DNA from: Streptacidiphilus pinicola
GTDB lineage: Bacteria > Actinomycetota > Actinomycetes > Streptomycetales > Streptomycetaceae
Direction: 5' to 3'
Length of the DNA: 64,000 nucleotides
NCBI RefSeq assembly: GCF_003258295.1
Contig: NZ_QKYN01000027.1
Coordinates: forward strand, 1-64,000
The notes beneath the pieces were generated by a model. It was not told where the DNA came from, searched no databases, and worked only from the letters and a program-made list of their open reading frames with translations. The position numbers and the translations under genes were made by a program. Below are positions 5,648 through 25,283 of this stretch, piece after piece (position 1 is the first letter of the stretch; the number at the start of each line of letters is the position of its first letter).

Positions 5648-5965
5648 GCTGCGGCCAAACGCCGGACTCCGGGCCGTCCGGTCCTGACCCGGCGGATTCT
5701 CGACGTGTTTCCGGGCGGTTCCGAGGCCGTTAAGAACACCTCGATTTCGCACCAAGCATTGACCACGCACGAACAACTCTGCTTCAGTACACCACGGCCA
5801 GTGGTGCAACTACTCGGCCGATCCGCCAGCAGTCCCTCAAGCACGTTTCAACACCGGCGGGTTGGCCATTCTGGTCCGTGGAACCCCAGGGACCGGAGCC
5901 ATCCCGCAGGCAGTGCGCCGCCTCCGACCGGAGGCGGCGTGGAGCGCAGAGAGGATCTTCCTTCC
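5648..5965. other. Long promoter and leader region of the HEWHE gene
   Basis: 318 bp without a gene. It holds promoter module A (5759-5806) and then a leader of about 160 nt that ends in GAGCGCAGAGAGGATCT just before the ATG. The same stretch precedes the paralogue at 24936, so leader and ribosome site are conserved between the two genes. Confidence 0.6.
5759..5806 (+). promoter_or_regulatory. Protease promoter-operator module, copy A
   Basis: TTGACC (5759-5764), an 18-bp spacer, TTCAGT as the -10 position, then the palindrome CACCACGGCCAGTGGTG (5790-5806), which would cover the transcription start. TTGACC begins 31 bp before the palindrome, as in copies B and C. Copies A and C also share CAACTCTGCTT in the spacer. 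The palindrome end is 160 bp before the ATG at 5966. Confidence 0.8.
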
Positions 5966-7132
5966 ATGGGTCACCCCCACTCGCGTGGCGCGAGCCACAA
6001 GGTTCTGACCGGACTCGCCTCGCTGACCCTGGTCACCGGCGCCGCCCTCGTCGCGGCCCAGGCTCCGACGGCCGTGGCGGCCAGCCCGGCCCACACCGCC
6101 TCCCAGGCCGACCCGTACAGCCCGCAGTACCAGCACGCCTACCGCCACGGCGCGATACCGACGCGCGGGCAGAACGCGAAGATGAAGGCCTGGGCGTCCT
6201 CCCACGCCGCGGCGGCGACCGGCCCGGAGACGCTGTCCTACGGCGGCGGCATCGACGGCATCGGTGTGCAGAGCGGCCACAGCAAGGTCTACCTGGTCTT
6301 CTACGGCACCCAGTGGGGAACCAAGACCACCGACTCGCACGGCAACGCGGCCTTCAGCAAGGACCCCGACCACGCGGCCTCGGCGGCACAGCAGATGTTC
6401 AAGGGCATCGGCACCAACAGCGAGAAGTGGTCCGCCGACCTGACCCAGTGGTGCGACGGCCCCAACGTCTCGGCCGGCGCCACCAGCTGCCCGAGCAACG
6501 CCAACTTCATCCCTTACCAGACCGGCGGCGTGCTGTCCGGCGTCTGGTACGACAACTCCAAGGCCTCGCCGGCCAAGGCCTCGGGCCACCAGCTGGGCGT
6601 GGAGGCCCTCGCCGCCGCCAAGCACTTCGGCAACACCACGGCCGCGGCCAACCGTGACGCCTACTACGTCATCCTCTCGCCCCACGGCGTGAACCCGGAC
6701 GACTACCAGAACCCGACCACGGGCTACTGCGCCTGGCACGACTGGAACGGCGACACCACGCTCACCGGCGGCGCGGTCTCCTCGACCGTCGGCGACATCG
6801 CCTTCTCCAACCAGCCCTACAACATGGACCTGGGCGCCAGCTGCGGCGTCGGCTTCGTCAACTCCCCCGGCACGCTCGACGGTTACACCATGACGCTGGG
6901 CCACGAGTGGCACGAGATGATGTCGGACCAGAACCCGGCGGGCGGCTGGACCAACAACACCGGCAGCTCCTACAACGGCCAGGAGAACTCCGACGAGTGC
7001 GCCTGGCTCTCCCCCGGCACCGCCGGCGGCGCCGCGAACATCTCCTTCGGCAGCTTCGGCACCTACGCCGAGCAGGCCAGCTGGTCCAACGACACCAACA
7101 GCTGCGCCATCTCGCACGCGATCCTGCACTGA
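5966..7132 (+). CDS. Secreted HEWHE-motif protein, putative zincin-like protease 1
   Basis: 388 aa. The ATG follows GAGAGGATC; a signal peptide runs to about residue 39 (AQAPTAVAAS). Conserved with the paralogue at 23782: YRHGAIPTRGQNAKMKAWA, ETLSYGGGIDGIGV, KVYLVFYGTQWG, WCDGPNVSAGATSCPSNANFIPYQTGGVLSGVWYD, YYVILSPHG, SNQPYNMDLGASCGVGFVNSPG, LGHEWHEMMSDQNPAGGW (HEWHE at 313-317) and NSDECAWLSPGT. This is not HExxH. HE..E..(S/T)D.....GW....DE.C recalls the HExxE signature of the EXORDIUM/PHI-1-like zincin relatives, so a metal site is plausible but unproven. Expression is likely driven by module A. Its 3' end overlaps the convergent NTF2-like gene by 70 bp. Confidence 0.85.
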   Translation: MGHPHSRGASHKVLTGLASLTLVTGAALVAAQAPTAVAASPAHTASQADPYSPQYQHAYRHGAIPTRGQNAKMKAWASSHAAAATGPETLSYGGGIDGIGVQSGHSKVYLVFYGTQWGTKTTDSHGNAAFSKDPDHAASAAQQMFKGIGTNSEKWSADLTQWCDGPNVSAGATSCPSNANFIPYQTGGVLSGVWYDNSKASPAKASGHQLGVEALAAAKHFGNTTAAANRDAYYVILSPHGVNPDDYQNPTTGYCAWHDWNGDTTLTGGAVSSTVGDIAFSNQPYNMDLGASCGVGFVNSPGTLDGYTMTLGHEWHEMMSDQNPAGGWTNNTGSSYNGQENSDECAWLSPGTAGGAANISFGSFGTYAEQASWSNDTNSCAISHAILH

Positions 7133-7527
7133 TCCACTGCTGACGCCGGCGTCACATGCGCGGCGACGACCCGCCACCCGCCCTCCACGGTGTGCACCCA
7201 GGTGCGGGTGTAGCGCACACGTGCGGTGAACTCCTGCCCGCCGAGCGTCCCGGCGACGGTTCCGAGGAACCACGTGACGCCGGTCGTGCCGACCACCAGC
7301 AGGGCCAACTCCTCCTCGTCGACCCGACCCAGACGCTGCTGACCACTGCGCTGGATCTCCAGGTCCTCCTTCTTCCCGTACAACTGCCCGTCGGGCCCGG
7401 TGAAGACCAATCGGTCGTCCAGCAGGAGTTCCAGGGCATCGGCGTCACCCGCAAGCTGCGCGGCTTGGAGTCGGCGCTCCGCAGAGCGCAGTTCCTCAGT
7501 CGATCGACCGTTCTCGTCAGCACTCAT
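7063..7527 (-). CDS. NTF2/SnoaL-like (DUF4440-type) protein
   Basis: About 154 aa with the cone-shaped NTF2-like fold pattern: STEELRSAERRLQAAQLAGDADALELLLDDRLVFTGPDGQLYGKKEDLEIQRSG, then the strands ELALLVVGTTGVTWFLGTVAGTLGGQEFTARVRYTRTWVHTVEGGWRVVAAHVTP. Family members include isomerases, cyclases and non-catalytic proteins, so substrate and role cannot be inferred. The last 30 residues lie beyond the domain and overlap the convergent HEWHE gene. An ATG three codons upstream (7536) is also possible; no strong ribosome site separates them. Confidence 0.8.
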   Translation of the reverse strand: MSADENGRSTEELRSAERRLQAAQLAGDADALELLLDDRLVFTGPDGQLYGKKEDLEIQRSGQQRLGRVDEEELALLVVGTTGVTWFLGTVAGTLGGQEFTARVRYTRTWVHTVEGGWRVVAAHVTPASAVDQCRIACEMAQLLVSLDQLACSA

Positions 7528-7626
7528 GCACGGCACGCTACCGCCAGGAAGCGTTCCGCGATGTGAAATGATCCGCTTTGCGCGCGTTCACGCACGCAAC
7601 AGCAGTTCGAGAACGGAGAACAGACG

Positions 7627-9009
7627 ATGGGCGGCCTCGGCGTCGGGTGGAAGCTGCACAATGAGGGCCGCCCGCCCGCCCCGGGCGCGGTCGTCGCACC
7701 GGACGAACGGCTCAGCTGGGGCCGCACCATCGGACTCGGCGCACAGCACGTCGTCGCCATGTTCGGTGCTTCTTTTGTCGCACCGGTGCTGATGGGTCTG
7801 AACCCGAACCTGGCCATCATGATGTCCGGGTTCGCGACGATGCTGTTCCTGCTCTGGACCCGCGGAACCATCCCCTCCTACCTCGGCAACAGCCTCTCCT
7901 TCGTCGGCGCGGCCGCGACCATCAGGGCGCAGGGCGGCGGCATCGCCGAGGTCACCGGCGCGCTGCTGGTAACGGGCGCGGTGCTCGCCGGCTGCGGACT
8001 GCTCGTCAGGACGCTCGGCGCCCGCGTCGTCCACGCCGTGCTGCCACCCGCCGTCACCGGCGCCGTGGTGATGCTGATCGGCTTCAACCTCGCGCCCGTC
8101 ACCGCCGGGACGTACTGGCCGCAGGACCAGTGGGTGGCCCTCGCCACCATGGCCGCCACCGGCTTCGCCCTCGTCGCACTGCGCGGTTTCTGGTCGCGCA
8201 TCGCCATCTTCCTCGGCCTCGTCTTCGGCTATGCCCTGTCCTGGATCCTCGACCGCACCGCCGGCAAGATCCACTCCGCGGACGGCAGCGGCCAGGTCAC
8301 CGACCACTGGCGCCTCGATCTCTCCGCCGTCTCCCACGCCCCCTGGATCGGCCTCCCCCACTTCCACGCCCCCGCGTTCGACGCCTCCGCGATCCTGGTC
8401 GCCCTCCCCGTCGTCATCGCCCTCATCGCCGAGAACACCGGCCACGTCAAAGCCGTCAGCGAGATGACCGGCGCCGACCTCGACGACCGCATGGGCGACG
8501 CCATCGCGGCCGACGGCGTCGCCACCGTCCTGTCCACCGCGGTGGGCGGCGGAGCCACCACCACCTACGCCGAGAACATCGGCGTCATGGCCGCCACCCG
8601 TGTCTACTCCACCGCCGCCTACTGGGCCGCCGCCTGCTTCGCCCTGCTGTTCGGCCTCTGCCCCAAGTTCGGCGCCATCGTCGCCGCCATCCCCGGCGGC
8701 GTCCTCGGCGGCATCACCGTCGTCCTCTACGGCATGATCGGCCTGCTGGGCGCCCAGATCTGGATCCACAACAAGGTCGACCTCACCAACCCCGTCAACC
8801 TCATCCCCTGCGCCTGCGGCATCATCATCGGCGCCGGCGGCGTCACCATGCACATCACCAAGAACTTCGAGCTCGGCGGCATCGCCCTGGGCACCATCGT
8901 CACCCTCACCGGCTACCACGCCCTACGCGTCCTCGCCCCCGCCCACCTGCGCGAGACCGCCGGACACGACCCCGGCGCCCAGGAATCCCCGCAACCCCAA
9001 GACCTCTGA
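7627..9009 (+). CDS. NCS2-family uracil/xanthine permease
   Basis: 460 aa, polytopic, of normal family length. It has the UraA/RutG-type signatures GLGAQHVVAMFGASFVAPVLMGLNPN early, GNSLSFVGA, LPVVIALIAENTGHVKAVSEMTGADLDDRMGDAIAADG (the NCS2 ENxGH motif) and GGGATTTYAENIGVMAATRVYS. These resemble uracil permeases more than purine ones. It would import a nucleobase by proton symport at the membrane. A GGAG lies just before the ATG. No catabolic genes lie next to it, so it is probably a lone salvage transporter. Confidence 0.93.
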   Translation: MGGLGVGWKLHNEGRPPAPGAVVAPDERLSWGRTIGLGAQHVVAMFGASFVAPVLMGLNPNLAIMMSGFATMLFLLWTRGTIPSYLGNSLSFVGAAATIRAQGGGIAEVTGALLVTGAVLAGCGLLVRTLGARVVHAVLPPAVTGAVVMLIGFNLAPVTAGTYWPQDQWVALATMAATGFALVALRGFWSRIAIFLGLVFGYALSWILDRTAGKIHSADGSGQVTDHWRLDLSAVSHAPWIGLPHFHAPAFDASAILVALPVVIALIAENTGHVKAVSEMTGADLDDRMGDAIAADGVATVLSTAVGGGATTTYAENIGVMAATRVYSTAAYWAAACFALLFGLCPKFGAIVAAIPGGVLGGITVVLYGMIGLLGAQIWIHNKVDLTNPVNLIPCACGIIIGAGGVTMHITKNFELGGIALGTIVTLTGYHALRVLAPAHLRETAGHDPGAQESPQPQDL

Positions 9010-9084
9010 GCGTGCTCAAGATCGTGATCACCGGGCGTCACACCTAGGGAGCTCCAACGCGAGGGCCGAGTCGGCAGCGAGCGC

Positions 9085-9846
9085 TCACCCGGGCGCCGCC
9101 TCCCCCGGCCGGGAGCCGCCTTGTGAGGCACGCTCAAGGGCGTCCAGGACGGTCTCGGCGGTCCAGTGTCCGGCTGCTCCGGGGCGGGTGGCGAGGTAGC
9201 GGGCGCAGCGGTCCAGGGGCCAGCCGTGGCCTTCGGTGAGGCCGGTGGCGAGGTTGGCCAGGTAGGCGGCGGCAGGAGCGTTGAGCTCGGCGTCGGCGAC
9301 GTTCCGGGGCGCGGTGAAGGTGCAGACGGGGATGTCGTCGATCGCTCCGGGGCAGACCAGGGTTTCGTAGCGGCCGGGGCCGTACTGGTCGCGGCCGGCG
9401 GTGAGTACCCCGGTGAGGTCGAGGTCGGTGCCGGGTTCCCGGTGCATCTCCTGGGCGGCGATGTCGGAGAACTGCTGCTCGGTCACGAGGTAGGCGCGGG
9501 CGGGCATCTCGCCGTCCCGGGCGGGGTCGTAGAAACCGATGCCGCCGGTCCACACGAGCGAGTGCAGCGCGAAGTAGAGCTGACCGGGCAGCAGGACCGC
9601 GACCCGCTGCCGCGGGGGCCGGCGGTCCCGGCAGCCCGGGTAGGTCCGGGCGCTGCCGGGCGGGCGTCCGCCGGCGATGTAGTACGCCAGCCGGTCGGCG
9701 TGCATGTTCGACCCGTACGCCGCGTACCAGACCAGTCCCTCCGCGCCCGAACCGCCGGACCGGGGCTCCGCCCGGCGGGCACGGAGGACAGCAGAGGTAG
9801 CACCACGCCTGGGTCCATTACTGACAACCCGTCGGATCTCGTCCAT
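9085..9846 (-). CDS. Gamma-glutamylcyclotransferase-like protein
   Basis: 253 aa from the ATG at 9846. The core holds the GGCT-fold phosphate-loop motif WYAAYGSNMHADRL, followed by the barrel region GQLYFALHSLVWTGGIGFYDP...PARAYLVTEQQFSDIAAQEM and a Trp-rich C-terminal helix. The first 40 residues are Arg-rich and poorly structured, so the true start may lie later. GGCT folds open gamma-glutamyl amines or bind related ligands; the real substrate is unknown. It is a single gene, convergent with the permease. Confidence 0.75.
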   Translation of the reverse strand: MDEIRRVVSNGPRRGATSAVLRARRAEPRSGGSGAEGLVWYAAYGSNMHADRLAYYIAGGRPPGSARTYPGCRDRRPPRQRVAVLLPGQLYFALHSLVWTGGIGFYDPARDGEMPARAYLVTEQQFSDIAAQEMHREPGTDLDLTGVLTAGRDQYGPGRYETLVCPGAIDDIPVCTFTAPRNVADAELNAPAAAYLANLATGLTEGHGWPLDRCARYLATRPGAAGHWTAETVLDALERASQGGSRPGEAAPG

Positions 9847-10035
9847 GACGTACGACGGTATCCGCAGACAGGCCCGATCCGATCGCCGGGAGCCAGCCCC
9901 GCCGTGGTCGAGGCGACGGACAGGGCGATGCTCAGCGAGGTCGCCGCCCTGGCGAATTCGCGGTCCTGCTGCGGGACTTGCTCCGCGTTCCTATCCTTAC
10001 GCCAAGGGCTGGAGACGACCTGGGGGGCAGGCCGC

Positions 10036-10806
10036 ATGGGAGCAGCGAGCAGCACAACGTCGGTGTTGAAGTCGGGGGCCAGGCAGCTCCTGGGGCGTTT
10101 CGGATTCGACATCGTGCGCAGCACCAACAACCGGGGAGGCGTCGACGACTTCATCCCGTTCGAGGCGACGTTACGGGCCGCACAGTCGGCCGGCCTGTCG
10201 GTCGGCGACTACATCGACGAGGTCGTGAACGGGACGCCCGGCGCGACCCGGGCCACCATCGACGAACTGCGTGCCCTCGGCGTCTTCTCGGCCGGTCTGA
10301 GGACGGTGCTGGAGATCGGCCCCGGGTCAGGGCGGTATCTGGAGAAGACCCTGAAGGAGGCTTCACCGGAGCGCTACGAGATCTACGAGACGGCGGCGCC
10401 CTGGGCCACCTACCTGGTGGACACCTTCGGCGTGGTCGCCCAGCCGACCACGGGAAGGAGCCTGGCGCCGACGCCGGACGACAGCGTCGACCTCGTGCAG
10501 GCGCACAAGGTCTTCAGCGGCGTGACCTTCCTCAGCTCGTCCCGCTACTTCTTCGAGATGGCCCGGGTCACCCGACCCGGCGGTCGGATCGTCTTCGACG
10601 TGATGACCGAGACCTGCCTGGACCCGGCCTCAGTTCGGGCGTGGGTGACGAAGGGCGGAGCCGGCCACGACTCCTACCCCGCCGCCATGCCTCGCTCGAC
10701 GTGTGTGGACCTCTTCGCCTCCCTCGGCTGCAGCTTGGAGGCCGGCTTCCTGGTACCCATGGGCATCGCCTCGACGGAGGTGCTCGTCTTCCGTAAGGAC
10801 GCCTGA
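10036..10806 (+). CDS. Class I SAM-dependent methyltransferase
   Basis: 256 aa; the ATG at 10036 follows a GGGGGGCAGG stretch. Motif I is VLEIGPGSGRYLEKTLKEA, then YEIYETAAPWATYL (acidic ligand region), SVDLVQAHKVFSGVTFLSSSRYFFEMARVTRPGGRIVFDVMTETC (motifs II/III with the post-motif RPGG). The N-terminal 60 residues (LLGRFGFDIVRSTN) resemble the helical start of small glycan-cluster methyltransferases, but this is weak. The substrate is unknown. It is convergent with kup. Confidence 0.85.
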   Translation: MGAASSTTSVLKSGARQLLGRFGFDIVRSTNNRGGVDDFIPFEATLRAAQSAGLSVGDYIDEVVNGTPGATRATIDELRALGVFSAGLRTVLEIGPGSGRYLEKTLKEASPERYEIYETAAPWATYLVDTFGVVAQPTTGRSLAPTPDDSVDLVQAHKVFSGVTFLSSSRYFFEMARVTRPGGRIVFDVMTETCLDPASVRAWVTKGGAGHDSYPAAMPRSTCVDLFASLGCSLEAGFLVPMGIASTEVLVFRKDA

Positions 10807-10883
10807 CCCGGGCGCGCCGACGGTCCACGTCTCGGGCCGCCTTGAAGAGACCCTGCGTGGCCGTCCCGGAATCCCGGTACCGC

Positions 10884-12836
10884 CTAGACCTCCACGTTCG
10901 AGCCCATGATCACCGTGCGGTCCTGCGGCAGCTGGAAGTACGTGGCGGCGGCTGAGGTGATGTGGGAGGTCGCGATGAACAGGCGCTTCTGCCACTTCGG
11001 CATCGTCCGCTCCGGGCCGGGCGTCAGCTCGATCTTGGAGAGGAAGTAGGTGCAGGTGTCCACGTCGATACGGCCCTCGGTCTGTTCCTCGGTCAGAAGG
11101 GCCAGCGCGGCCGGGACGTTCGGGGTCTCGATGTAGCCGAACCTCGCGGTGACCTGGATGATCCCGTCCCCGCCGCTGCCGAGGCTGTCGACGACCATCC
11201 GGTCCTCCTGGCGGATCCGGGGAACGGGCTCGGTGCGGATCGCCACGACCGCGAGGTGCTCGTGGCGCACGTGGTTGTGCTCGACATTGGCCCGTAGCGC
11301 CAGTGGCACCGTCGTGGACGAGCGGTTGAGGAAGATCGCCGTGCCGGGCACGACCCGTACGACCTTGTCGGCCTGCAGCTTGTCGACGAAGGGCCGCAGT
11401 GGGCCCTCCAGCCGTTCGCGGCTCGCGGTGACGATGTCGCGGCCGCGGCGCCAGGTGGTCATGATCGTGAAGGCGATCAGGCCGATCAGCAGTGGCAGCC
11501 ACGCACCGTGAATGATCTTGGTCAGGTTGGCGGCGAGGAACATCAGGTCCCCCGAAAGGAGCACGGCGCCGCCGACGATGATCCAGGGCAGGGGGATCTT
11601 CCAGCGCTGCCAGGCGACGTAGAGGAAGAGCACAGTGGAGATGGTGATCGTCGCGGTCACCGCCATCCCGTAAGCGAAGGTGAGCCGCGCCGAGGACTGG
11701 AAGCCGAAGATCAGGCCGAGCACGGAGACCATCAGCAGCCAGTTGATCCAGGGGACGTAGATCTGTCCGATCGTCTTCTCGGACGTGTGGGCGATCCGCA
11801 GGCGCGGCAGGTAGCCGAGCTGTGCGGCCTGGGATGCGACGGAGAAGGCGCCACTGATGACGGACTGCGAGGCGATGACGGTCGCGACGGTGGACAGGAC
11901 GACGAGCCCGACCCGGGCCCAGCCGGGGGCCAGCAGGAAGAACGGACCGCTGATGTTCGCCGGGTCCTTGAGGACGAGGGCAGCCTGGCCGAAGTAGCTC
12001 AGCGTCAGCATCGGGAGCACCAGGAAGGTCCAGGACCGGCTGATCGAGCGGCGGCCGAAGTGGCCCATGTCCGCGTAGAGCGCCTCCGCGCCGGTGAAGG
12101 AGAGGACGACCGCCGCAAGGGCGAAGAACGCGATGTTGAAATGATGGAACACGAAGCCGAGTGCATACGTGGGAGACAGCGCGCGCAGGACGGCCGGCTC
12201 GTCCGCGATGCCGCTGACGCCGAGCGCGCCGATGGCAAGGAACCAGAGGACCATGATCGGCCCGAACAGCTTGCCCACGGCCTCGGTGCCGCGCTTCTGA
12301 CCCAGGAACAGCAGCACGGCGATGACGGTCGTGATCGGGATGACCAGGTCGTGCAGGCTCGGATCGACGATCTTGAGGCCCTCGACCGCGGACAGCATCG
12401 ACATGGCCGGTGTGATCATGCTGTCGCCCAGGAACAGCGCGGCCCCGAAGATGCCGAGCGCGGACAGCCACACCGCGGTGCGCTTGCCCCGCTTGGACAG
12501 TTTCTGCTGCAGCAGCGTGATCAGGGCCATGATGCCGCCCTCACCCTCGTTGTCGGCGCGCATCGCGAGGGACACGTAGGTGACCGAGACGACCATGATG
12601 ATCGACCAGAAGACCAGCGAGACGACGCCGTAGACGTTGGCGGTGTTCACCGGCACCGGGTGCGGATCGGTAGGGTCGAACACCGTCGCCATCGTGTAGA
12701 TGGGGCTCGTACCGATGTCGCCGAAGACGACACCGAGGGCGCCGACCATCAGCCCCAGCCGCACCGTGTCGCGCGCGGCGCCCGCGCCGGCGTGCGTGCT
12801 CTGTTCGGCGCCGTTCTCAGCGTTGATCGCTCTCAC
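10884..12836 (-). CDS. kup: Potassium uptake protein Kup (low-affinity K+ transporter)
   Basis: 650 aa, matching the family. It starts LGLMVGALGVVFGDIGTSPIYTMATVF, the Kup/HAK/KT signature, then has about 12 membrane segments including GGIMALITLL, FLGDSMITPAMSMLSAVEGL, GTEAVGKLFGPIMVLWF and QSVISGAFSVASQAAQLGYLPRLRIAHTSEKTIGQIYVPWINW. A cytoplasmic C-terminal domain of about 180 residues follows. It takes up K+ (with H+) and often works at acid pH. A monocistronic gene divergent from the TetR gene, 126 bp apart. Confidence 0.96.
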   Translation of the reverse strand: MRAINAENGAEQSTHAGAGAARDTVRLGLMVGALGVVFGDIGTSPIYTMATVFDPTDPHPVPVNTANVYGVVSLVFWSIIMVVSVTYVSLAMRADNEGEGGIMALITLLQQKLSKRGKRTAVWLSALGIFGAALFLGDSMITPAMSMLSAVEGLKIVDPSLHDLVIPITTVIAVLLFLGQKRGTEAVGKLFGPIMVLWFLAIGALGVSGIADEPAVLRALSPTYALGFVFHHFNIAFFALAAVVLSFTGAEALYADMGHFGRRSISRSWTFLVLPMLTLSYFGQAALVLKDPANISGPFFLLAPGWARVGLVVLSTVATVIASQSVISGAFSVASQAAQLGYLPRLRIAHTSEKTIGQIYVPWINWLLMVSVLGLIFGFQSSARLTFAYGMAVTATITISTVLFLYVAWQRWKIPLPWIIVGGAVLLSGDLMFLAANLTKIIHGAWLPLLIGLIAFTIMTTWRRGRDIVTASRERLEGPLRPFVDKLQADKVVRVVPGTAIFLNRSSTTVPLALRANVEHNHVRHEHLAVVAIRTEPVPRIRQEDRMVVDSLGSGGDGIIQVTARFGYIETPNVPAALALLTEEQTEGRIDVDTCTYFLSKIELTPGPERTMPKWQKRLFIATSHITSAAATYFQLPQDRTVIMGSNVEV

Positions 12837-12962
12837 CTGGACCCGTCACAGTTCGGTGGCCCGGAGACCGGATGACAACAACTGTGTCCATATAAGCAGC
12901 TCGAACGGCAACTGGCCGACATCGACTCCAGCACTCCGGTTCGGGGGGACCAGGGTTGCTGC

Positions 12963-13538
12963 TCATACCCCGGTTGGGTGGCCTGTCTCGAGGGTGAGGA
13001 GGAGCCGCGCCGCCTTCTTGGCCTGGCGGGCTGGTGCGGGCGTGCCCGAGATCGCGGCGGTGGTCATGGCTCCCTCGGCCAGCAGGGCGATCTGCGCGCC
13101 GACGTCTGCTGCCGCCCCTGCGGCCGTTGTGAGTTCCTGCAGGTAAGCGTGGAACGCGTCCTTGTGGTGACGGGCGGCGGCCACGACCTGTGGCGAGGTG
13201 CCGCCCAGCTCTCCGAAGGAGTTGACGAAGGCGCACCCGTGGTAGTCGGGTTGGGTGAACCAGTCTTCCAGCCAGTCGAAGACTGCGAGCACCCGCTCCT
13301 GCGGGGTTCGCGCGGATGCGTCGACGTGGGTCGTGACGCTGTGGAGCCAACGGGTGTCCCTGCGGGCCAGGTAGGCCCCGAGGAGATCCCCCTTGGAGGG
13401 GAACAGCTGGTAGAGGCGCCGCAGCGTCACGCCCGCGGCGTCACGGATCACGTCCATGCCGACGGCCTGGATCCCTTGGGCGTAGAAGAGGTCCTCGGCC
13501 GCGTCCAGGATCCGCTCGCGTGCCAGATCAGTGTCCAC
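12963..13538 (-). CDS. TetR/AcrR-family transcriptional repressor
   Basis: 191 aa from the GTG at 13538, which follows GGAAGGATC. HTH: RERILDAAEDLFYAQGIQAVGMDVIRDAAGVTLRRLYQLFPSKGDLLGAYL. The C-terminal domain carries WLEDWFTQPDYHGCAFVNSFGELGG (TetR_C type seen in YxaF/LmrA-like repressors) and binds an unknown ligand. It is divergent from a DUF1348 gene, with two matching palindromes between them, so it very likely controls both itself and that gene. Confidence 0.93.
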   Translation of the reverse strand: MDTDLARERILDAAEDLFYAQGIQAVGMDVIRDAAGVTLRRLYQLFPSKGDLLGAYLARRDTRWLHSVTTHVDASARTPQERVLAVFDWLEDWFTQPDYHGCAFVNSFGELGGTSPQVVAAARHHKDAFHAYLQELTTAAGAAADVGAQIALLAEGAMTTAAISGTPAPARQAKKAARLLLTLETGHPTGV

Positions 13539-13560
13539 GATCCTTCCGCCCCCCTTTCGC

Positions 13561-13576
13561 GAGAACCATCGTTCTC
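13561..13576. promoter_or_regulatory. TetR operator 1 (GAGAACCATCGTTCTC)
   Basis: Inverted repeat GAGAAC-N4-GTTCTC, 22 bp upstream of the TetR GTG. The same half-sites recur at 13598-13613. The two centres are 37 bp apart, and CTAGTCTAG lies between them. Confidence 0.8.
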
Positions 13577-13597
13577 CTAGTCTAGGAAGCACATCAC

Positions 13598-13613
13598 GAG
13601 AACGCTCGTTCTC
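13598..13613. promoter_or_regulatory. TetR operator 2 (GAGAACGCTCGTTCTC)
   Basis: Second GAGAAC-N4-GTTCTC palindrome, 26 bp upstream of the DUF1348 ATG. With operator 1 it would let one repressor shut both divergent promoters. Confidence 0.8.
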
Positions 13614-13639
13614 ACCAGTGCCGGCCAGAGGAGTGCCAC

Positions 13640-14110
13640 ATGTCAGACCAGCGCCCCCCATTCCCGCCGTTCACGCGGGAAACGGCAATCGCCAAGGTCC
13701 GCCAGGCCGAAGACGGCTGGAACACACGCGACCCCGAGAAGGTTGCCCTCGCCTACACGCCCGGCTCGCGCTGGCGCAACCGCGCGGAGTTCGTCACCGG
13801 CCGCGACGAGATCGCGAGGTTCCTGTCCCGCAAGTGGAACCAGGAACTGGACTACCGCCTCATCAAGGAACTGTGGGCGTTCGACGGGAACCGCATCGCG
13901 GTGCGGTTCGCCTACGAGTACCACGACGACTCCGGCCAGTGGTACCGCGCCTACGGCAACGAGAACTGGGAGTTCGACGACAACGGCCTCATGCGCGCCC
14001 GCCACGCCAGCATCAACAACCTCCCTATCGCCGAGGAGGACCGCACGTACCACTGGCCGCTGGGGCGCCGACCCGACCACCACCCCGGCCTGACCGAGCT
14101 CGGACTGTAA
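13640..14110 (+). CDS. DUF1348 nuclear-transport-factor-2-like protein
   Basis: 156 aa after GAGGAGTGCCAC. Typical DUF1348: [120 protein letters not shown]. The NTF2-type pocket suggests a small-molecule enzyme or binder, but no activity is established for the family. Divergent from, and probably repressed by, the TetR protein. Such pairs are commonly induced by a toxic small molecule; here that is inference. Confidence 0.9.
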
Positions 14111-16292: not shown

Positions 16293-16357
16293 CCCAGCGG
16301 TGCCGCCCACTGGGCACGCATCCGCGCCCGCAGCGATGACTGCGGGCGAACGGCTGA

Positions 16358-16696: not shown

Positions 16697-16941
16697 GCTT
16701 TTCCTCCTCGGTCATGATCACCACGCCTCGGATACGCATGGAGAAGGCACAGCCTACGGCCACCGCGACCGGGCATCCCCCAGCCCTCCCGACCGCCGAT
16801 GCCGCACTCCCCCCGTACGAGGCTTGAGCGAGGCCCTACTGCGATTTCAGTAGGCGGGTTCACTGCAGCGGAACGACGACACGAAAGCGCTGGTCAGGGA
16901 GGGTAGGCGGGAATTGGTTCTGGATCGGAAGGCCCCCTGCC

Positions 16942-19218: not shown

Positions 19219-19224
19219 CGAGGA

Positions 19225-20490
19225 ATGCGGCCTGATGGACCGATGATGGAATCCCGCCGGGCTGCTGCTCCGGCCCGAACCACAGGTTGGCCCTCCGCTA
19301 TGATCCGCCGCTGGCAGCTCTATCTGCGCCGCCACCCACGCGCCGCAGACCTGTGGCTGGCCGTGCTGCTCTTCGTGGCCACCGGGCCCGGGGCGGCCAT
19401 CCCGACCGGCGCGTCGAAACCGGGCGCATGGTGGCCGCCCTCCGTCGTGGGGGTGGTCGCCTGCGGAGCGATCATGTGGCGACGCAGCCACCCCCGGGCG
19501 GTGGTCGTGGTGACGGCCGCCTGCGCGACGACCGTCAGCGCCCTCGGCTATCTGCCGTCGGCGCTGTTGCTGGGGCCCCTGATGGTGGCTCTCTACTCGC
19601 TCGTGGTGCGGGCGACGACGCGGACCACCGTGATCTACGCAAGCGCCGCCATCGCGGCTGTCCTCGTCGCGACGCTGCTGGGCCGGTCGACTCAGGGGGC
19701 CTGGCTGGTCAAGACCGTTGTCCCCACCTCGGCTCTGCTCCTGCCACTCGCGATCGGCCAGGCCGTCCGGCTGCACCGCGCCTGGCTCGGGGCTGAGCGC
19801 GCTCGCGCCGAGTACGCGGAGCGCACGAGGGAGGAGGAGGCCCGGCAACGCGTGGTGGAGGAGAGGCTGCGCATCGCCCGTGAACTGCACGACGTCGTCG
19901 CGCACCATCTGGCGCTCGCGAACGCACAGGCCGGTGCGGTCTCCCGGCTGATCGCCCGCGATCCGGCGCGCGCCCAGGAGTTCGTCGACCAGCTCACGGA
20001 CACCACCTCGGCGGCCCTGCGCGAGCTCAAGGCCACCGTCGGCCTCATGCGCCAGGGCGAAGACGCCGACGCGCCGCTCGAGCCGGCACCGGGTCTCGCC
20101 CAGCTGCCGCAACTGACCGACTCCTTGGCGGGCACGGGGCTCCATGTCGCCGTCGTGATCGACGGAGAGCCCCGCCCGCTGTCCCCCGGAACGGACCTGA
20201 CGGCATTCCGCATCATCCAGGAGGCGCTGACCAACGTCACCAAACACGCTGCCACCGACCACGCGCAGGTGCGCCTGAGCTACACCCGCAACCGGCTGAC
20301 CATCACCGTCACGGACGAAGGACCCGGCACCGACGCACCTTCCGCCGTTCCCGGCTACGGCGTGCTCGGCATGCGCGAGCGCGCCCAGTCGCTCGGCGGC
20401 CGCCTCGACGCCGGACGCCGGGCCGCCGGCGGATTCGAGGTCACCGCCGAACTGCCCCTCGACCACCGCCTCAAGGAGCACGACACATGA
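19225..20490 (+). CDS. NarL-type sensor histidine kinase
   Basis: 421 aa from the first ATG; ATGs at 19243/19246 and at 19300 (MIRRWQLYLRRHPRAADLW) are also possible because no ribosome site decides. Four to five N-terminal membrane helices (LWLAVLLFVATGPGAAIP ... LLLPLAIGQAVRL), a coiled coil, then HisKA_3 EERLRIARELHDVVAHHLALANAQAG with the phosphorylated His in RELHDVVAHH. HATPase: TAFRIIQEALTNVTKHA and DEGPGTDAPSAVPGYGVLGMRERAQSLGG. Its stop overlaps the regulator start (ATGA). Probably senses an envelope or drug signal and regulates the MMPL exporter. Confidence 0.93.
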   Translation: MRPDGPMMESRRAAAPARTTGWPSAMIRRWQLYLRRHPRAADLWLAVLLFVATGPGAAIPTGASKPGAWWPPSVVGVVACGAIMWRRSHPRAVVVVTAACATTVSALGYLPSALLLGPLMVALYSLVVRATTRTTVIYASAAIAAVLVATLLGRSTQGAWLVKTVVPTSALLLPLAIGQAVRLHRAWLGAERARAEYAERTREEEARQRVVEERLRIARELHDVVAHHLALANAQAGAVSRLIARDPARAQEFVDQLTDTTSAALRELKATVGLMRQGEDADAPLEPAPGLAQLPQLTDSLAGTGLHVAVVIDGEPRPLSPGTDLTAFRIIQEALTNVTKHAATDHAQVRLSYTRNRLTITVTDEGPGTDAPSAVPGYGVLGMRERAQSLGGRLDAGRRAAGGFEVTAELPLDHRLKEHDT

Positions 20491-21167
20491 CCGTCCGCGT
20501 CCTGCTGGTCGACGACCAGGCGCTGCTGCGCACCACCTTCCGTGTCGTCATCGACTCCGCTGAAGACCTGGAGGTCGTCGGCGAGGCGGCGGACGGCGCC
20601 CAGGCCGTGGCACTCGCCGTACAGCACCGGCCCGACGTGGTGCTCATGGACATCCGCATGCCGGGGATGGACGGCCTGGCCGCTACGGCGGCGATCTGCG
20701 ATCGTCCGGAGCTGGCCGGCACCCACGTGCTCATCCTGACGACGTTCGAGACCGACGAGCACGTGGCCACGGCCCTGCGGGCGGGCGCCGCCGGGTTCCT
20801 GGGCAAGGACGTGCAGGCCGACCAACTCCTGGACGCCATTCGCACCGTCGCGGAGGGGGAAGCGCTGCTGTCTCCGACGGCGACCCGCTCCTTGATCACC
20901 CGCTTCCTGGCCACGCCGCAGGCGCTCGAGGCGGCCTCCGGGCCGGATCCGTTGGGCGATCTGACGGCACGCGAGCGGGAGATCATGTCGCTGGTCGCGG
21001 AAGGCATGACCAATCAGCAGATCGCCGCGAAGCTGCATGTCAGTCACCTCACTGTGCGCACGCACGTCCATCACGCCATGCAGAAGCTGGACGCCCGCGA
21101 CCGTGCGCAACTCGTGGTGATCGCCTACCAGACCGGCTTGGTGCAGCCGGGAGCACCGTCCGACTGA
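20487..21167 (+). CDS. NarL/FixJ-type response regulator
   Basis: 226 aa. The receiver domain has VLLVDDQALLRTTF and the phospho-acceptor Asp55 in VVLMDIRMPGMDGL, with Lys in GFLGKDVQ. C-terminal LuxR HTH: LTAREREIMSLVAEGMTNQQIAAKLHVSHLTVRTHVHHAMQKLDARDRAQLVVIAYQTGL. It starts in an ATGA overlap with its kinase, so the two are translationally coupled. Confidence 0.95.
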   Translation: MTVRVLLVDDQALLRTTFRVVIDSAEDLEVVGEAADGAQAVALAVQHRPDVVLMDIRMPGMDGLAATAAICDRPELAGTHVLILTTFETDEHVATALRAGAAGFLGKDVQADQLLDAIRTVAEGEALLSPTATRSLITRFLATPQALEAASGPDPLGDLTAREREIMSLVAEGMTNQQIAAKLHVSHLTVRTHVHHAMQKLDARDRAQLVVIAYQTGLVQPGAPSD

Positions 21168-21206
21168 GGGGCGAAGACGGCGGTCGGTGCAGCGTAGCCG
21201 AGCCCG

Positions 21207-22025
21207 TCAGCCGGGCCGGTGTGCGATGACCGCGAACATGGTGACCGACAAGTGGAAGGCACTGCGTTCGGCGGCGGCCGTGAGGTCGGCGTAGAGCCGG
21301 TCCCGCTGCTCCTCGGTGATCAGACCCCGCTGGAGCGCGGCCGCGCCCAGCCCTCGGACGAGCGGCCAGGTGACGGTCCGTGGATCGTGGAGCAGGACGT
21401 CGGATCCGAGGTCGTCCACGATCAGGCCTGCCTCGGCGAGCCAGCCCGCCAGGTGGCGTCCGGCCTCCGGGGTGGCGGCGGCTGCCCGGGTGACGGAGGC
21501 CAGCCCGGCGCGGATCTCCGGGGCGGCCGGGTGGAGGATGAACGTGGCCCAGTCGCTGTCGAGCAGGGCGACCCGGCCGCCCGGGCGCAGCACCCGGGCG
21601 ATCTCGGCCACGGCTCGGGCCGGATCGGCCAGATGCTGCAGGACCCGCTCGCATCGGACGACATCGACACTCGCGTCGGCGAGCGGGAGTGCGAGCGCGT
21701 CACCGTCCACGAACCGCGCTGGGCTGTCGACGTCGGCCGCGCGCCGCTCGGCGAGCGCGCGCAGGCCCGGGTGGGGTTCCAGGCCGAGCGCGACACCGTC
21801 CGGACCGACCGCCGCGGCGAGTACCTGGGTCTCCGACCCGGTGCCTGACCCGATGTCCAGTGCCCTCTCCCCCGGACGCACGCCGAGGCGGGCGTGCGCC
21901 CATGCCCGCAGCCGGCGCACGCCGTCGTAGACGGCCTGCGCGTCCAGCGCGGTGACCAGCCGGTCGGTGACCGCAGGGTCGGCATTGGCCGCATGGAAGG
22001 CCGAGGTGGGGCGCGGTTCGCTCAC
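21207..22025 (-). CDS. Class I SAM-dependent methyltransferase (UbiE-like)
   Basis: 272 aa. Motif I: LDIGSGTGSETQVLAAAVGPDGVALGLEPHPGLRALAERRA. Then ARFVDGDALALPLADASVDVVRCERVLQHLADPARAVAEIARVLRPGGRVALLDSDW, the textbook Methyltransf_11 block. The C-terminal half has LAEAGLIVDDLGSDVLLHDPRTVTWPLV and a helical cap. The acceptor is unknown; this shape is common in quinone-, polyketide- or small-molecule-modifying enzymes. Convergent with the response regulator and 159 bp from promoter module B. Confidence 0.88.
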   Translation of the reverse strand: MSEPRPTSAFHAANADPAVTDRLVTALDAQAVYDGVRRLRAWAHARLGVRPGERALDIGSGTGSETQVLAAAVGPDGVALGLEPHPGLRALAERRAADVDSPARFVDGDALALPLADASVDVVRCERVLQHLADPARAVAEIARVLRPGGRVALLDSDWATFILHPAAPEIRAGLASVTRAAAATPEAGRHLAGWLAEAGLIVDDLGSDVLLHDPRTVTWPLVRGLGAAALQRGLITEEQRDRLYADLTAAAERSAFHLSVTMFAVIAHRPG

Positions 22026-22347
22026 GCACTCACTATAGGCAGGCCTGACGACCGTTCAGCGGCTTGGGCCGCCGGCCCCCTGGTCCTTCTGACGGATCCC
22101 ATGGAACAGGCGGGGTACAGACGTTCGTCCTGCGCCCTGAGTTTCGCCCGTGTCAACGGAACTTCTCATTCTCGTAAGAACCATTGACCGCAAACCATCA
22201 AGTCTGGTTCTCTACACCACGGCCAGTGGTGCACCGCTTGTCCGATCAGCCGATCTACCGTCATGCACGTTTTCCTGCACGTCAGTTGGTGATCCGCGCG
22301 CGCTTGTCCCCGCGCGGGTCGCCCTGGCGTCCCGCTCAAGGAGAAGC
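22026..22347. other. Divergent promoter region holding module B
   Basis: 322 bp without a gene between the methyltransferase and G1 peptidase 2. It contains promoter module B and a leader of about 115 nt with CAAGGAGAAGC before the ATG. Nothing else is recognisable. Confidence 0.5.
22184..22231 (+). promoter_or_regulatory. Protease promoter-operator module, copy B
   Basis: TTGACC (22184-22189), an 18-bp spacer, TTCTCT, then CACCACGGCCAGTGGTG (22215-22231). The palindrome is identical to copy A and the 31-bp offset is the same, while the spacer sequence differs. It drives G1 peptidase 2; the palindrome ends 117 bp before the ATG. Confidence 0.8.
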
Positions 22348-23097
22348 ATGCGCAGGTTCCTGACAGGCACCGCCGCCCTCGCCGCCGTCGCGACGTCCCT
22401 CGCCGGCCTCGTCGTTCCGGTCAGCGCGGCAGCGGCCTCCGGGCTGCCGTTCCGGCCCATCAGCCACAACGTCACCACCGGCCAGCACCACAAGGGCTAC
22501 AACATCAACGGCTACAACTGGGGCGGCTACGCCGCCACGGGCAGCGGCTTCACGTCCGTCTCGGCGTCGTGGACCGAGCCGCGGGCGACGTGCAACTCCA
22601 CCAACGACCTGTACGCCCCCTGGGTCGGCATCGACGGCTACGGGTCGAGCACGGTGGAGCAGACCGGGGTGGCGACGGACTGCTCGAGCGGCAGCCCGGT
22701 GAACCAGGCCTGGTACGAGATGTACCCGGCCAACCCGGTCTACCTCAGCCTCAGCTCCTACCCGGTGTCGGCGGGCGACTCCATCCACGCCTCGGTGACC
22801 TACGCCGGCAGCAACCGGTACACGCTGAAGCTGTCGGACTCCACCAAGGGGTGGACGTACACCACCACCAAGAGCCTCTCGGCGTCGCGGGCCAGCGCCG
22901 AGGTCATCATCGAGTCGCCGACCGGGGCCTACCCCAACTTCGGGACGCTGAACTTCAGCTCGGCGACGGTCAACGGCGCCTCGCTCGGTTCGTCCGGCCC
23001 GACGGCGTTGGACCCCAGCTCGGGCGGCGTCTACGAGGCGCACACGAGCGCCCTCTCCGGCGGGACCAGCTTCTCTGAGCAGTACCTGCACGAGTAG
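22348..23097 (+). CDS. Secreted G1-family (eqolisin, glutamic) peptidase 2
   Basis: 249 aa after AAGGAGAAGC. Signal peptide to about residue 30. Body: YNWGGYAATGSGFTSVSASWTEPRATC, LYAPWVGIDGYGSSTVEQTGV (Gln105), QAWYEMYPANPVY, SAGDSIHASVTYAGSNRYTLKLSDSTKGW and ASAEVIIESPTG (Glu185). Gln105/Glu185 should be the catalytic dyad by family analogy. It is clearly related to G1 peptidase 1 but lacks its Gly-rich tail. Module B lies upstream and a strong hairpin downstream, so it is a single-gene unit. Confidence 0.92.
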   Translation: MRRFLTGTAALAAVATSLAGLVVPVSAAAASGLPFRPISHNVTTGQHHKGYNINGYNWGGYAATGSGFTSVSASWTEPRATCNSTNDLYAPWVGIDGYGSSTVEQTGVATDCSSGSPVNQAWYEMYPANPVYLSLSSYPVSAGDSIHASVTYAGSNRYTLKLSDSTKGWTYTTTKSLSASRASAEVIIESPTGAYPNFGTLNFSSATVNGASLGSSGPTALDPSSGGVYEAHTSALSGGTSFSEQYLHE

Positions 23098-23149
23098 GAG
23101 CAGGCGCCGGCGGCGCGGTGGGAATCCCCCGTCCCGTCAGGTCGCCACC

Positions 23150-23188
23150 GCACCGCCCGACCGCCGGCCCTCGGCGGCCGGGCGGTGC
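23150..23188. terminator. Terminator hairpin after G1 peptidase 2
   Basis: 17-bp stem with one mismatch (left arm GCACCGCCCGACCGCCG) and a 5-nt loop, 53 bp after the stop. It also ends close to the convergent hypothetical gene. Confidence 0.75.
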
Positions 23189-23249
23189 GCGCCGTCTGAC
23201 GGCCTGTCGGCACTCCGCGGGGTTCAGCGCCACCCGCTCGCCACGCCGG

Positions 23250-23678
23250 TCATTCCGGGGAGCTTGGCGGGGGCTGCAGGTACATCAGCGAAGTGGTGGG
23301 GAGACGAACCCGGCTGACGGCGAGTCGGCAGCGGTGCGGGTCGAGCCAGGTGCTGCGCCAGCCCGGTGGGTCGGCCGCCTCCCATCGGGTGCGGGCGATG
23401 CCGGTGGCGGGGGTGTGCTGTTCGGGGAGGAAGAGTTGGACCCAGCCGGCCGCACGTTGGGGTTCGACGCGGTGGGGGATGCCGGCGGTGGCCAGGGCCG
23501 CGACGAGGTCGACCGCGTGGGGCGGCCAGCCTTGTGCGACGGCGGCGTGGATGAGTTCGGCCGGACCGCGGCCGCTGGGGGCGGCGCTGTCGGCGGCCGA
23601 CGTCGGGGCGGGGTGGTGGTGGTCGGGTTGCACGATGGCGTACCTGGTGTCGCGGGTCGTGTGGGTCTGAGCGGACAC
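23250..23678 (-). CDS. Hypothetical protein
   Basis: 142 aa from a GTG at 23678 (VSAQTHTTRDTRYAIVQPDHHH). I do not recognise a family. It has a Pro/His-rich start, a helical core (AELIHAAVAQGWPPHAVDLVAALATAGIPHRVEP) and a strand-rich half (GWVQLFLPEQHTPATGIARTRWEAADPPGW...CRLAVSRVRLPT). No signal or membrane segment. Strong GC3 bias supports coding. An upstream in-frame ATG at 23738 would add a Pro/Arg-rich tail and is less likely. It lies just downstream of the HEWQE gene on the same strand. Confidence 0.6.
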   Translation of the reverse strand: MSAQTHTTRDTRYAIVQPDHHHPAPTSAADSAAPSGRGPAELIHAAVAQGWPPHAVDLVAALATAGIPHRVEPQRAAGWVQLFLPEQHTPATGIARTRWEAADPPGWRSTWLDPHRCRLAVSRVRLPTTSLMYLQPPPSSPE

Positions 23679-23781
23679 TGCTTGGCGTGATGGGCGGACG
23701 CCCCGGGGTGGGTGCGGACGCGACGGGCCCGCACCCACCCCGGGTGTCCACCGCTCGTGCGGTCGGACGACCGGCGGCCGG

Positions 23782-24936
23782 TCAGTGCAGAGTGGCGTGG
23801 GAGAGGTCGCACTCGTTGGTGTCGTTGGACCAGGTGGCCTGCTCGGCGAAGCTGCCGGTGCCCATGCTGACCATGCCGGCGCCGCCCGCGGTGCCAGGGG
23901 AGAGCCAGGCGCACTCGTCGGCGTTCTCCTGGCCGTTGTAGGAGCTGCCGGACTGCTGGTTGGTCCAACCGCCCGCCGGGAACTGGTCCGACATCATCTC
24001 CTGCCACTCGTGGCCGAGCGTCATCGTCCAGCCGTCGAGCGTTCCGGGCGAGTTGACGAAGCCGACGCCGCAGCCCGAGCCGGAGTCCATGTTGTAGGGC
24101 TGGTTGGAGAAGGCCAGGTCGCCGTAGGGCGAGTTGACGGCACCGCCGGTGAGCGAGGAGTCGCCGGTGTAGTCGTGCCAGGCGCAGTACTGGCCCTGGT
24201 AGTTGTCGGGGTTGGTGCCGGTCGGCGACAGGATCACGTAGTAGGTGTCACGGTTGGACGCGGCCGTGGTGTTGCCGAAGTGGGCGGCCGCGTTGACGGC
24301 CTCGGTGCCCAGCTGGTTGCCGGAGGCGGCGGCCGGGGAGGCACCGGAGTCGTCGTACCAGACGCCGGAGAGGACGCCGCCGGTCTGGTAGGGGATGAAG
24401 CTCGCGTTGCTGGGGCAACTCGTCGCCCCGGCGCTCACGTTGGAGCCGTCGCACCACTGGGTGAGCACCGAGGACCACTGCTCGCCGCCGGTGCCGATGC
24501 CCTTGAACATCTCCTGCGCGGCCGGCGCGCCGCCGTCCGCGTCGCCGGAGAAGTTCAGGTCGCCGTTGCCGTTGGTCGACTGCGTGCCCCACTGGTTTCC
24601 GTAGAAGACCAGGTAGACCTTGGCGTGGCTGTCCAGGACGCCGACGCCGTTGATGCCGCCGCCGTAGGACAGGGTCTCGGGGCCGGTCGCTGCGGTGGTG
24701 GCGTGGGTCTTGGCCCAGGCCCGCATCTTCGCGCCCTGGGCGCGGGTGGGGATGGCCCCGTGGCGGTAGGGGTGCTGGTACTGGGGGTTGAAGGGGTTGG
24801 CCTGCGGCGCGGCGTGCGTGGCAGGTGCCGCGAGGGCCGCCGGCGCCTGGGTCGCGACAAGCGTCGCTGCGGTGAGCAGAGTCAGCGAGGCGAGTCCGGT
24901 CAGGACCTTGCGGCCGTGCTGGTGGGGGTGACCCAT
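23782..24936 (-). CDS. Secreted HEWQE-motif protein, putative zincin-like protease 2
   Basis: 384 aa from the ATG at 24936, behind GAGAGGATC. Close paralogue of the protein at 5966: same signal peptide style (KVLTGLASLTLLTAATLVATQAPAALA), same blocks (ETLSYGGGINGVGV, KVYLVFYGNQWG, FIPYQTGGVLSGVWYD, SNQPYNMD, GVGFVNSPGTLDGWTMTLGHEWQEMMSDQ, NADECAWLSPGTAGG). The motif is HEWQE (309-313), so the second His of HEWHE is not conserved while His309, Glu310 and Glu313 are. This supports H-E-x-x-E rather than HExxH as the functional pattern. Promoter module C lies upstream. Confidence 0.85.
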   Translation of the reverse strand: MGHPHQHGRKVLTGLASLTLLTAATLVATQAPAALAAPATHAAPQANPFNPQYQHPYRHGAIPTRAQGAKMRAWAKTHATTAATGPETLSYGGGINGVGVLDSHAKVYLVFYGNQWGTQSTNGNGDLNFSGDADGGAPAAQEMFKGIGTGGEQWSSVLTQWCDGSNVSAGATSCPSNASFIPYQTGGVLSGVWYDDSGASPAAASGNQLGTEAVNAAAHFGNTTAASNRDTYYVILSPTGTNPDNYQGQYCAWHDYTGDSSLTGGAVNSPYGDLAFSNQPYNMDSGSGCGVGFVNSPGTLDGWTMTLGHEWQEMMSDQFPAGGWTNQQSGSSYNGQENADECAWLSPGTAGGAGMVSMGTGSFAEQATWSNDTNECDLSHATLH

Positions 24937-25283
24937 CGGGAGAGATCCTCTCTGCGCTTCGGACGCCACCACCGATGCAGAGGCGACGCCTGACGTGCCG
25001 TCGACGGCCGCAGACACGGTATGACCGGGCCGCGTGCCGTCAACTGGCCAGTGGGGGTGGGTGCTTGAGGACGTGCTCGTCGAGCGGGCCAGTTGTGCAC
25101 CACTGGCCGTGGTGAACACAAGCAGAGTTGTCCGGGTCAGGTCAATGACGTGTGCGAAGTCCCCTCCACTGTTCGCACACCCCCCACCACTCCCCCGCCA
25201 AAACTCCATGCCCGCGGCGCCAGCGCACCCGACTCCCCGCCGACGATCACTGTGGACACGGATCAGCACGGCATGACAGGTTG
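24937..25283. other. Leader and promoter region of the HEWQE gene
   Basis: 347 bp without a gene. It holds module C (25098-25145), a leader of about 160 nt similar to that of the 5966 gene (both carry CCTCAAGCAC downstream of the palindrome), and the 3' side of the DinB-like gene. Confidence 0.5.
25098..25145 (-). promoter_or_regulatory. Protease promoter-operator module, copy C
   Basis: Read on the minus strand: TTGACC (25145-25140), 18-bp spacer with CAACTCTGC, TTGTGT, then CACCACGGCCAGTGGTG (25114-25098). The palindrome and 31-bp offset match copies A and B. It ends 162 bp before the HEWQE ATG, almost the same as copy A (160 bp). Confidence 0.8.

Follow-up and report, generated by a model that had tools for sequence, protein, structure and literature searches.

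A palindromic candidate operator shared by secreted-peptidase genes of Streptacidiphilus and its probable reading by a TrmB-family protein

A promoter-palindrome module in three copies

The window analyzed here is a stretch of 64,000 nucleotides from Streptacidiphilus pinicola (positions 1 to 64,000 of contig NZ_QKYN01000027.1). It contains three dispersed genes, each preceded by a copy of one promoter-like module that ends in a 17-bp palindrome, CACCACGGCCAGTGGTG (Table 1). We verified the initial annotation in its description of these copies: three identical palindromes accompany TTGACC, an 18-bp spacer, and a TTNNNT hexamer, and they precede two HEWxE paralogues and one G1 peptidase gene. 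The layout is the same in all three, with a single base between the -10 hexamer, which is TTNNNT and not TANNNT, and the palindrome. As had also been stated, the palindrome starts 31 bp past the first base of TTGACC in every copy; it begins 176, 133, and 178 bp ahead of the predicted gene starts (copies 1, 2, and 3, respectively). The dyad has six-base arms around an asymmetric five-base centre, and nine modules, taken from five genomes and aligned, gave a majority consensus with CAACTCTGCTT between the hexamers.

Scanning the window for the palindrome with up to three mismatches returned 7 matches, 6 of which are the three copies read on both strands; 100 shuffles gave 0.56 matches on average and 3 at most. 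A chance origin of the window copies was rejected on this shuffle test and on the genus-wide sites described below (36 before peptidase genes, with 0.06 expected). In the 8.43-Mb assembly, a scan for CACCACNGCCNGTGGTG that allowed two mismatches gave 79 matches in total. The 17-mer CACCACGGCCAGTGGTG is exact only at the three places in the window, and a fourth module with one mismatch, again with the 31-bp spacing, lies ahead of another HEWxE gene (C8:11116-11163).

The three targets had been described as secreted proteases. The G1 gene matches PF01828. HEWxE is a putative protease that falls in no known family. The two window paralogues share 75% identity, the genome of S. pinicola holds 17 HEWxE matches (E values up to 1e-15), and the H-E-W-x-E residues are invariant in seven aligned members. 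The HEWxE core had no Pfam match over the cut-off and no PDB match by profile, P0002 had no NCBIfam match, and the AlphaFold model of HEWxE had a mean predicted local distance difference test (pLDDT) score of 33.9. The motif, a signal-like N terminus (by eye), and the co-regulation suggest that HEWxE is a protease. Longer members end in He_PIG/CBM-like domains, several of them 73 to 81% identical to those of an S53 sedolisin, and HEWxE could be a new family of secreted peptidases with accessory domains like those of sedolisins. The S53 assignment itself comes from a match of P0003 to kumamolisin (E value, 1.3e-26).

Table 1. Features of the window bearing on the module and its neighbourhood
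Feature	Coordinates	Strand	Remarks
Promoter copy 1	5759..5788	+	-35 TTGACC 5759-5764, 18-bp spacer, -10-like TTCAGT 5783-5788
Operator copy 1, CACCACGGCCAGTGGTG	5790..5806	+	One base past the -10
HEWxE secreted-type protein, 388 aa, predicted target 1	5966..7132	+	Peptidase function inferred; no Pfam match
Promoter copy 2	22184..22213	+	TTGACC 22184-22189, -10-like TTCTCT 22208-22213
Operator copy 2	22215..22231	+	Identical 17-mer CACCACGGCCAGTGGTG
G1 (eqolisin, PF01828 Peptidase_A4) gene, predicted target 2	22348..23097	+	PF01828 match
Promoter copy 3	25116..25145	-	TTGACC 25145-25140, -10-like TTGTGT 25121-25116
Operator copy 3	25098..25114	-	Identical 17-mer CACCACGGCCAGTGGTG
HEWxE secreted-type protein P0002, 384 aa, predicted target 3	23782..24936	-	No NCBIfam match
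TrmB-helix-turn-helix (HTH) plus LuxR-like HTH regulator (within P0001), adjoins copy 1	4409..5647	+	Disfavoured as regulator
Another G1/Peptidase_A4 gene, paired divergently with the TrmB-LuxR gene and lacking the operator	3465..4178	-

Operator sites and promoters across the genus

A model built on the nine modules picked up promoters whose palindrome differs in centre and in position, and we therefore searched for the core CACCAC-N5-GTGGTG alone. In the 14 Streptacidiphilus genomes, the exact core occurs at 58 sites, 36 of which lie within 500 bp upstream of a HEWxE (22), S53 (8), or G1 (6) match, against 0.06 expected. CACCCC-N5-GTGGTG occurs at 91 sites, 16 of them in such a position (0.09 expected), and CACC[A/C]C-N5-GTGGTG is the operator proper. 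Here and below, the S53 genes are those among the matches listed, from which C-terminal accessory-domain matches and short pieces were excluded by hand, and distances are measured to the start of the family match and not to a proven start codon. At the other 22 exact and 75 variant sites, no HEWxE, G1, or S53 match lies within 500 bp; these sites were kept in the counts, with the surroundings read at a minority of the 75 variant sites. They include trmB sites (1/22 exact and 5/75 variant), several of the 22 are intragenic, and three further trmB sites double as S53 sites and were counted as S53.

In the S. pinicola genome itself, sites lie ahead of peptidase or peptidase-like genes at the three places in the window and on C2, C8, C62, C128, C173, and C252, and a peptidase-linked site on C147 has an AACCAC arm. 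The one at C252:14437 precedes an M4 thermolysin-like gene. Further sites were seen in two genomes before a gene for an M17 leucyl aminopeptidase (L127 by Pfam; L141 by sequence likeness) and in two genera, at distances of 396 and 423 bp, before one for a binding-protein-dependent, OppC-like (oligopeptide-type) permease. Six genomes have a site ahead of a solute-binding protein gene (Pfam SBP_bac_1 in one, L147). At L133, L134, L139, L140, L142, and L147, the core was seen between DUF2092-like (by eye) and solute-binding protein genes, with varying centres.

The site positions are thus concentrated before peptidase genes and not randomly scattered. The dedicated regulon proposed initially is supported, with the operator standing before different peptidase families and on different promoters in 14 genomes. 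Its suggested role in acid-active proteolysis stands in part. Streptacidiphilus is acidophilic and S53 and G1 peptidases are acid active by their pH optima, so these two families fit, but M4, M17, permease, and solute-binding protein genes carry sites as well. Given the sites ahead of M4, M17, and permease genes, peptide/protein utilisation is a safer name for the regulon.

Thirty promoters selected by pattern had TTGAC[C/G] as -35, a spacer of 17 to 18 bp, and TTNNNT as -10, and the operator started 1, 2, 12, 13, 15, 16, 19, or 20 bp after the -10. This pattern admits only operators downstream of the -10 and cannot prove their position, and we therefore ran a two-sided test on the 36 peptidase-assigned exact sites, with patterns that had been shaped by eye on some of the same sites. 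TTGA[CA].-N17-18-T[TA]NNNT was present within 80 bp upstream in 26/36, and either this pair or TTGNNN-N17-18-TANNNT in 32/36. In contrast, neither pattern was found within 80 bp downstream (0/36) or, on the reverse strand, on either side (0/36). The end of the -10 and the operator were 1 to 21 bp apart, with no fixed helical phase. An operator downstream of the -10 without fixed helical phase fits a steric (roadblock) repressor.

An activator, in which the bound protein would help RNA polymerase, is unlikely. TrmB-family proteins, to which the candidate regulator presented below belongs, can activate (PMC4158304 and PMC4706686), and the poor -10 (TTNNNT) resembles that of some activated promoters. 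However, the promoter-like pairs lie upstream in 32/36 sites and downstream in none, at 1 to 21 bp and without helical phase, and archaeal relatives repress from such positions (PMC4158304, PMC4706686).

Lying downstream of the -10-like hexamer, the palindrome would also be part of the transcript, with its arms pairing into a 6-bp stem closed by a 5-nucleotide loop. Such a 5' hairpin might act at the RNA level, by stabilising the messenger or by controlling its translation. We consider this highly improbable. The CACCCC variant puts an uncompensated mismatch (C opposite U) into the stem at 16 peptidase sites and at 8 of the 9 trmB sites of the genus (three in both), and the same dyad is found between divergent genes. 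The conservation looks like one of base identity rather than of pairing, a compensated form not having been sought genome-wide.

The 31-bp spacing is true of the window copies, but it marks only one promoter subclass, since elsewhere the operator lies 2 to 21 bp after the -10. Orthologues of the window G1 gene in G002, G007, and G008 (L153, L159, and L162; 79 to 80% identity) have the operator without the 31-bp module; the operator was either kept while the promoter changed or gained separately. These orthologues also bear on an explanation without any regulation, according to which promoter and gene were recently duplicated together and the module is a remnant of this event. The HEWxE genes, two of the three in the window, are indeed paralogues with 75% identity. 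The third gene, however, encodes a G1 peptidase, and its orthologues have the operator but not the 31-bp module. Together with the S53, M4, and M17 genes that follow an operator in different contexts and in other genera, this makes a mere duplication remnant extremely improbable.

Other repeats were seen by eye in the HEWxE promoters. A TTGACC-N3-GGTCAA inverted repeat covers the -35 of two of them (upstream of L053 and L049), TTGAC-N8-GTCAA-like repeats occur in others, and these repeats perhaps belong to a second factor.

A TrmB-family protein as candidate regulator

A family-wide search for TTGAC-N26-55-CACCAC-N5-GTGGTG gave matches in 52/394 genomes, and one class of these matches lies ahead of a gene for a plain TrmB-family protein. 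In S. pinicola this trmB gene is outside the window (G000:C111:73288-74124, minus strand). A close orthologue is present in 14/14 genomes of the genus (in pieces in G013) and in 68/394 of the family. The winged helix PF01978 was matched above the curated cut-off by P0004 (E value, 1.8e-17) and by the S. pinicola copy (5.2e-18), and residues 12 to 263 of 289 matched TrmBL2 (5.6e-15). Foldseek, run with the TrmB model, returned TrmBL2 first (4.5e-15) and also the TrmB sugar domain 2f5t and PLD folds. The matches to TrmBL2 and those of Foldseek indicate a C-terminal effector/PLD-like domain; Pfam gave only a sub-threshold DUF7436 on the C terminus and no TrmB effector domain. The regulator had been called unknown at the outset. 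The TrmB-family protein, judged from its sequence and its gene neighbourhood, is now a strong candidate for the binding protein.

The genomic context links trmB, the operator, and peptidase genes. We considered the 48 named trmB loci among the matches listed (L283-L330); 18 others (L331-L348) were dropped as archaeal, clostridial, Chloroflexi, or other partial matches, including one partial Streptomyces match. A divergent S53 (40) or HEWxE (4) gene lies in the upstream stretch covered (up to 3 kb) in 44/48 loci and downstream in 0/48. One locus with trmB, operator, and S53 gene as a unit is L292, from the soil bacterium S. hygroscopicus ATCC 21589. The four loci without a divergent gene of these families are from Streptacidiphilus strains; the divergent gene called there looks transporter-like (by eye). 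In the 44 loci parsed by script, the operator was exact in 32 (three patterns allowed), present with one mismatch in 9, and absent from 3; in the random control, 45/960 pieces had an exact match, but these pieces were drawn from the same loci and include true sites. The remaining 4 loci have the operator in 3, L303 being without it in the span searched. In a set from other genera (L246-L262 without L250), 13/16 parsed loci had the operator within one mismatch, 2/16 had it with two, and L246 was without. Within the genus, 9/14 trmB genes have an operator within 500 bp, which is the CACCCC variant in 8 of the 9; upstream of the G008 trmB gene is a run of N.

Operator modules and trmB also tend to occur in the same genomes. 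Outside the genus, modules other than the acetyltransferase type described below are present in 17/54 trmB-bearing versus 5/326 trmB-less genomes (P = 5e-12), and without the six genomes in which the trmB promoter itself supplies the site, the figures are 11/48 versus 5/326 (P = 1.4e-7). These counts were made by hand among the rows listed, and the acetyltransferase type (20 genomes) was sorted by the look of the sequence, with the gene read in 10/20.

Two observations concern the trmB promoters. In L216-L228, trmB has an apparent promoter of its own (TTGCCA with TACGGT or TAACGT) that ends about 6 bases before the ATG (by eye), and the messenger is perhaps leaderless. Because of this nearby promoter, the operator farther upstream may serve the divergent gene and not trmB. 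In addition, CACCCC-N5-GTGGTG lies about 140 to 150 bp upstream of distant TrmB paralogues at G005:C16:342886 and G005:C38:9457, and more than one TrmB protein may share this type of operator.

The window holds another protein with a TrmB-type winged helix, the TrmB-LuxR regulator whose gene adjoins copy 1. Its position beside copy 1, its additional LuxR-like HTH, and the location of all three exact sites within 21 kb speak for it as the reader of the palindrome, but this is very unlikely. Besides S. pinicola, close orthologues (72 to 78% identity) occur only in G002, G004, G007, and G008, and moderate ones (38 to 47%) in G001, G011, G012, and G013. G003, G005, G006, G009, and G010 have no match above 38% and yet carry operator sites before peptidase genes. 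The exact core is absent from the TrmB-LuxR intergenic regions of the nine loci examined, and a looser pattern, applied to seven loci, found only CCCCACCAGTGGGGGTG in two. The recognition-helix region also appears, from the sequences, to be unlike that of the plain TrmB, and the protein keeps its partnership with a different G1 gene that is without operator. This divergent pair was seen in several Streptacidiphilus genomes (window 3465-5647; L083, L086-L090), and CCCCACCAGTGGGGGTG between the two genes is common to the window and L083. Could the pair be a second, separate peptidase switch?

Several observations weigh against the interpretation that the palindromes are operators read by the plain TrmB protein. 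In the genus, the exact core is not commoner than its reversed control (58 versus 132; the CACCCC variant, 91 versus 40), and our argument therefore rests on position and not on number. Most of the listed peptidase genes are without a site, which was found ahead of 29/82 HEWxE, 7/72 G1, and 16/79 S53 genes. Four of the 36 sites in the two-sided test (L153, L159, and L162, ahead of the G1 orthologues, and L169) had no promoter-like pair by the patterns used. The AlphaFold model of TrmB is moderate (mean pLDDT, 72.7; predicted template modeling score [pTM], 0.52), and the Foldseek matches to TrmBL2 reach template modeling (TM) scores of only 0.40 to 0.48 with a root mean square deviation of at least 19. 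With such values the two domains cannot be overlaid as a single unit, and perhaps they are set differently. The outer triplets of the operator, CAC/GTG, differ from the TAT/ATA of the archaeal motif compared below. Outside the genus, 37/54 trmB genomes have no non-acetyltransferase match to the strict TTGAC...CACCAC pattern, and 35 have no match to it at all. The region upstream of trmB in S. pinicola is without operator (at best 4 mismatches within 300 bp), as are those in G002, G006, G007, L283-L285, and L246. Finally, 20 genomes, of which 18 are without a close trmB, have a CACCACGAGTCGTGGTG-type palindrome that lies 37 to 40 bp past the first base of TTGACC, and such sites may well have another protein as reader. 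At the 10 such loci that were read, the palindrome is directly followed by an Eis-like GNAT acetyltransferase gene (L189, L195-L199, L201-L204; 9 of them trmB-less), and GNAT domains were found in the one Eis-like protein scanned (L195).

The bare trmB promoter of S. pinicola and the similar palindrome in TrmB-less genomes make a second reader possible. The same regulon and operator might be read by another regulator or by a TrmB paralogue, the linkage to trmB being co-location only; the operators upstream of the two distant paralogues in G005 also point in this direction. We consider this rather unlikely, in view of the divergent S53 or HEWxE gene at 44/48 loci with the operator between in most, the co-occurrence of trmB and modules (P = 5e-12), and a motif geometry shared with the archaeal TrmBL1 and Tgr.

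Taken together, these data make it quite likely that the palindromes serve as operators in a regulon by which Streptacidiphilus and related bacteria control the breakdown of protein by secreted enzymes, the most probable repressor being the TrmB-family protein. RNA polymerase would use TTGAC[C/G]-N17-18-TTNNNT promoters, and a dimeric repressor would sit on CACC[A/C]C-N5-GTGGTG, at or just past the predicted transcription start, and block initiation or the first steps of elongation until it is released by a signal. The repressor would be the TrmB-family protein, with its winged helix (PF01978) and PLD-like C-terminal domain, and the releasing ligand would be a nutrient, either a sugar, the usual small-molecule signal of the TrmB family, or a product of peptide breakdown. 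On balance, we also favor a broader hypothesis, that in many Streptomycetaceae a bacterial TrmB with an operator of near-archaeal geometry controls extracellular protein digestion (S53, G1, a putative new HEWxE peptidase family, aminopeptidase, and oligopeptide uptake). It would derive from an ancestral divergent unit of trmB, operator, and S53 gene, from which the operator spread to unrelated promoters.

A specific operator, a candidate repressor, and a list of predicted targets are now defined. Regulators of secreted proteases bear on soil protein turnover and on enzyme production in Streptomyces hosts, and the unannotated HEWxE family gains evidence of co-regulation. If the hypothesis is true, TrmB regulators run a bacterial regulon with a recognisably similar operator.

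Comparison with archaeal TrmB regulators

Among the literature matches listed, and in the parts covered, we found no account of S53 or G1 regulation in these bacteria and no description of such a regulon under TrmB or S53 regulation in actinobacteria, most subscription papers lying outside this scope. Kumamolisin-type sedolisins (S53) and eqolisins (G1) belong to the same peptidase families as the regulon targets, but they correspond to the targets and not to the switch.

TrmB regulators are known mainly from archaea (PMC4158304). The closest solved relative of the bacterial TrmB is TrmBL2 of Pyrococcus furiosus (5bpd, 5box, and 5bqt; about 22 to 25% identity in the Foldseek alignments), a chromatin-like protein that covers DNA (PMC4877046). 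TrmBL4 of Thermococcus barophilus, another member of the family, has been studied for a link to the degree of protein secretion (PMC10667668). It acts in an archaeon and under sugar conditions, and the part of that paper covered gives no operator of the present type.

The nearest parallel is the Thermococcales glycolytic motif (TGM), TATCAC-N5-GTGATA, which is bound by TrmBL1 of P. furiosus and Tgr of Thermococcus kodakarensis (PMC4158304, PMC4706686). These regulators repress from sites downstream of the promoter and activate from upstream sites (PMC4158304, PMC4706686). The TGM and the bacterial operator have in common the CAC-N5-GTG core, the 5-bp centre, and the inverted repeat, and the CACCCC variant departs from this core in one inner triplet (CCC-N5-GTG). 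Both systems also combine a TrmB-family regulator, here a candidate, with many scattered targets and a repressing or putatively repressing site downstream of the promoter. The TGM regulators, however, are archaeal and serve sugar metabolism, whereas the bacterial targets are mostly peptidases. Judged by its sequence and placement, the bacterial operator would work like a TGM but is not one.

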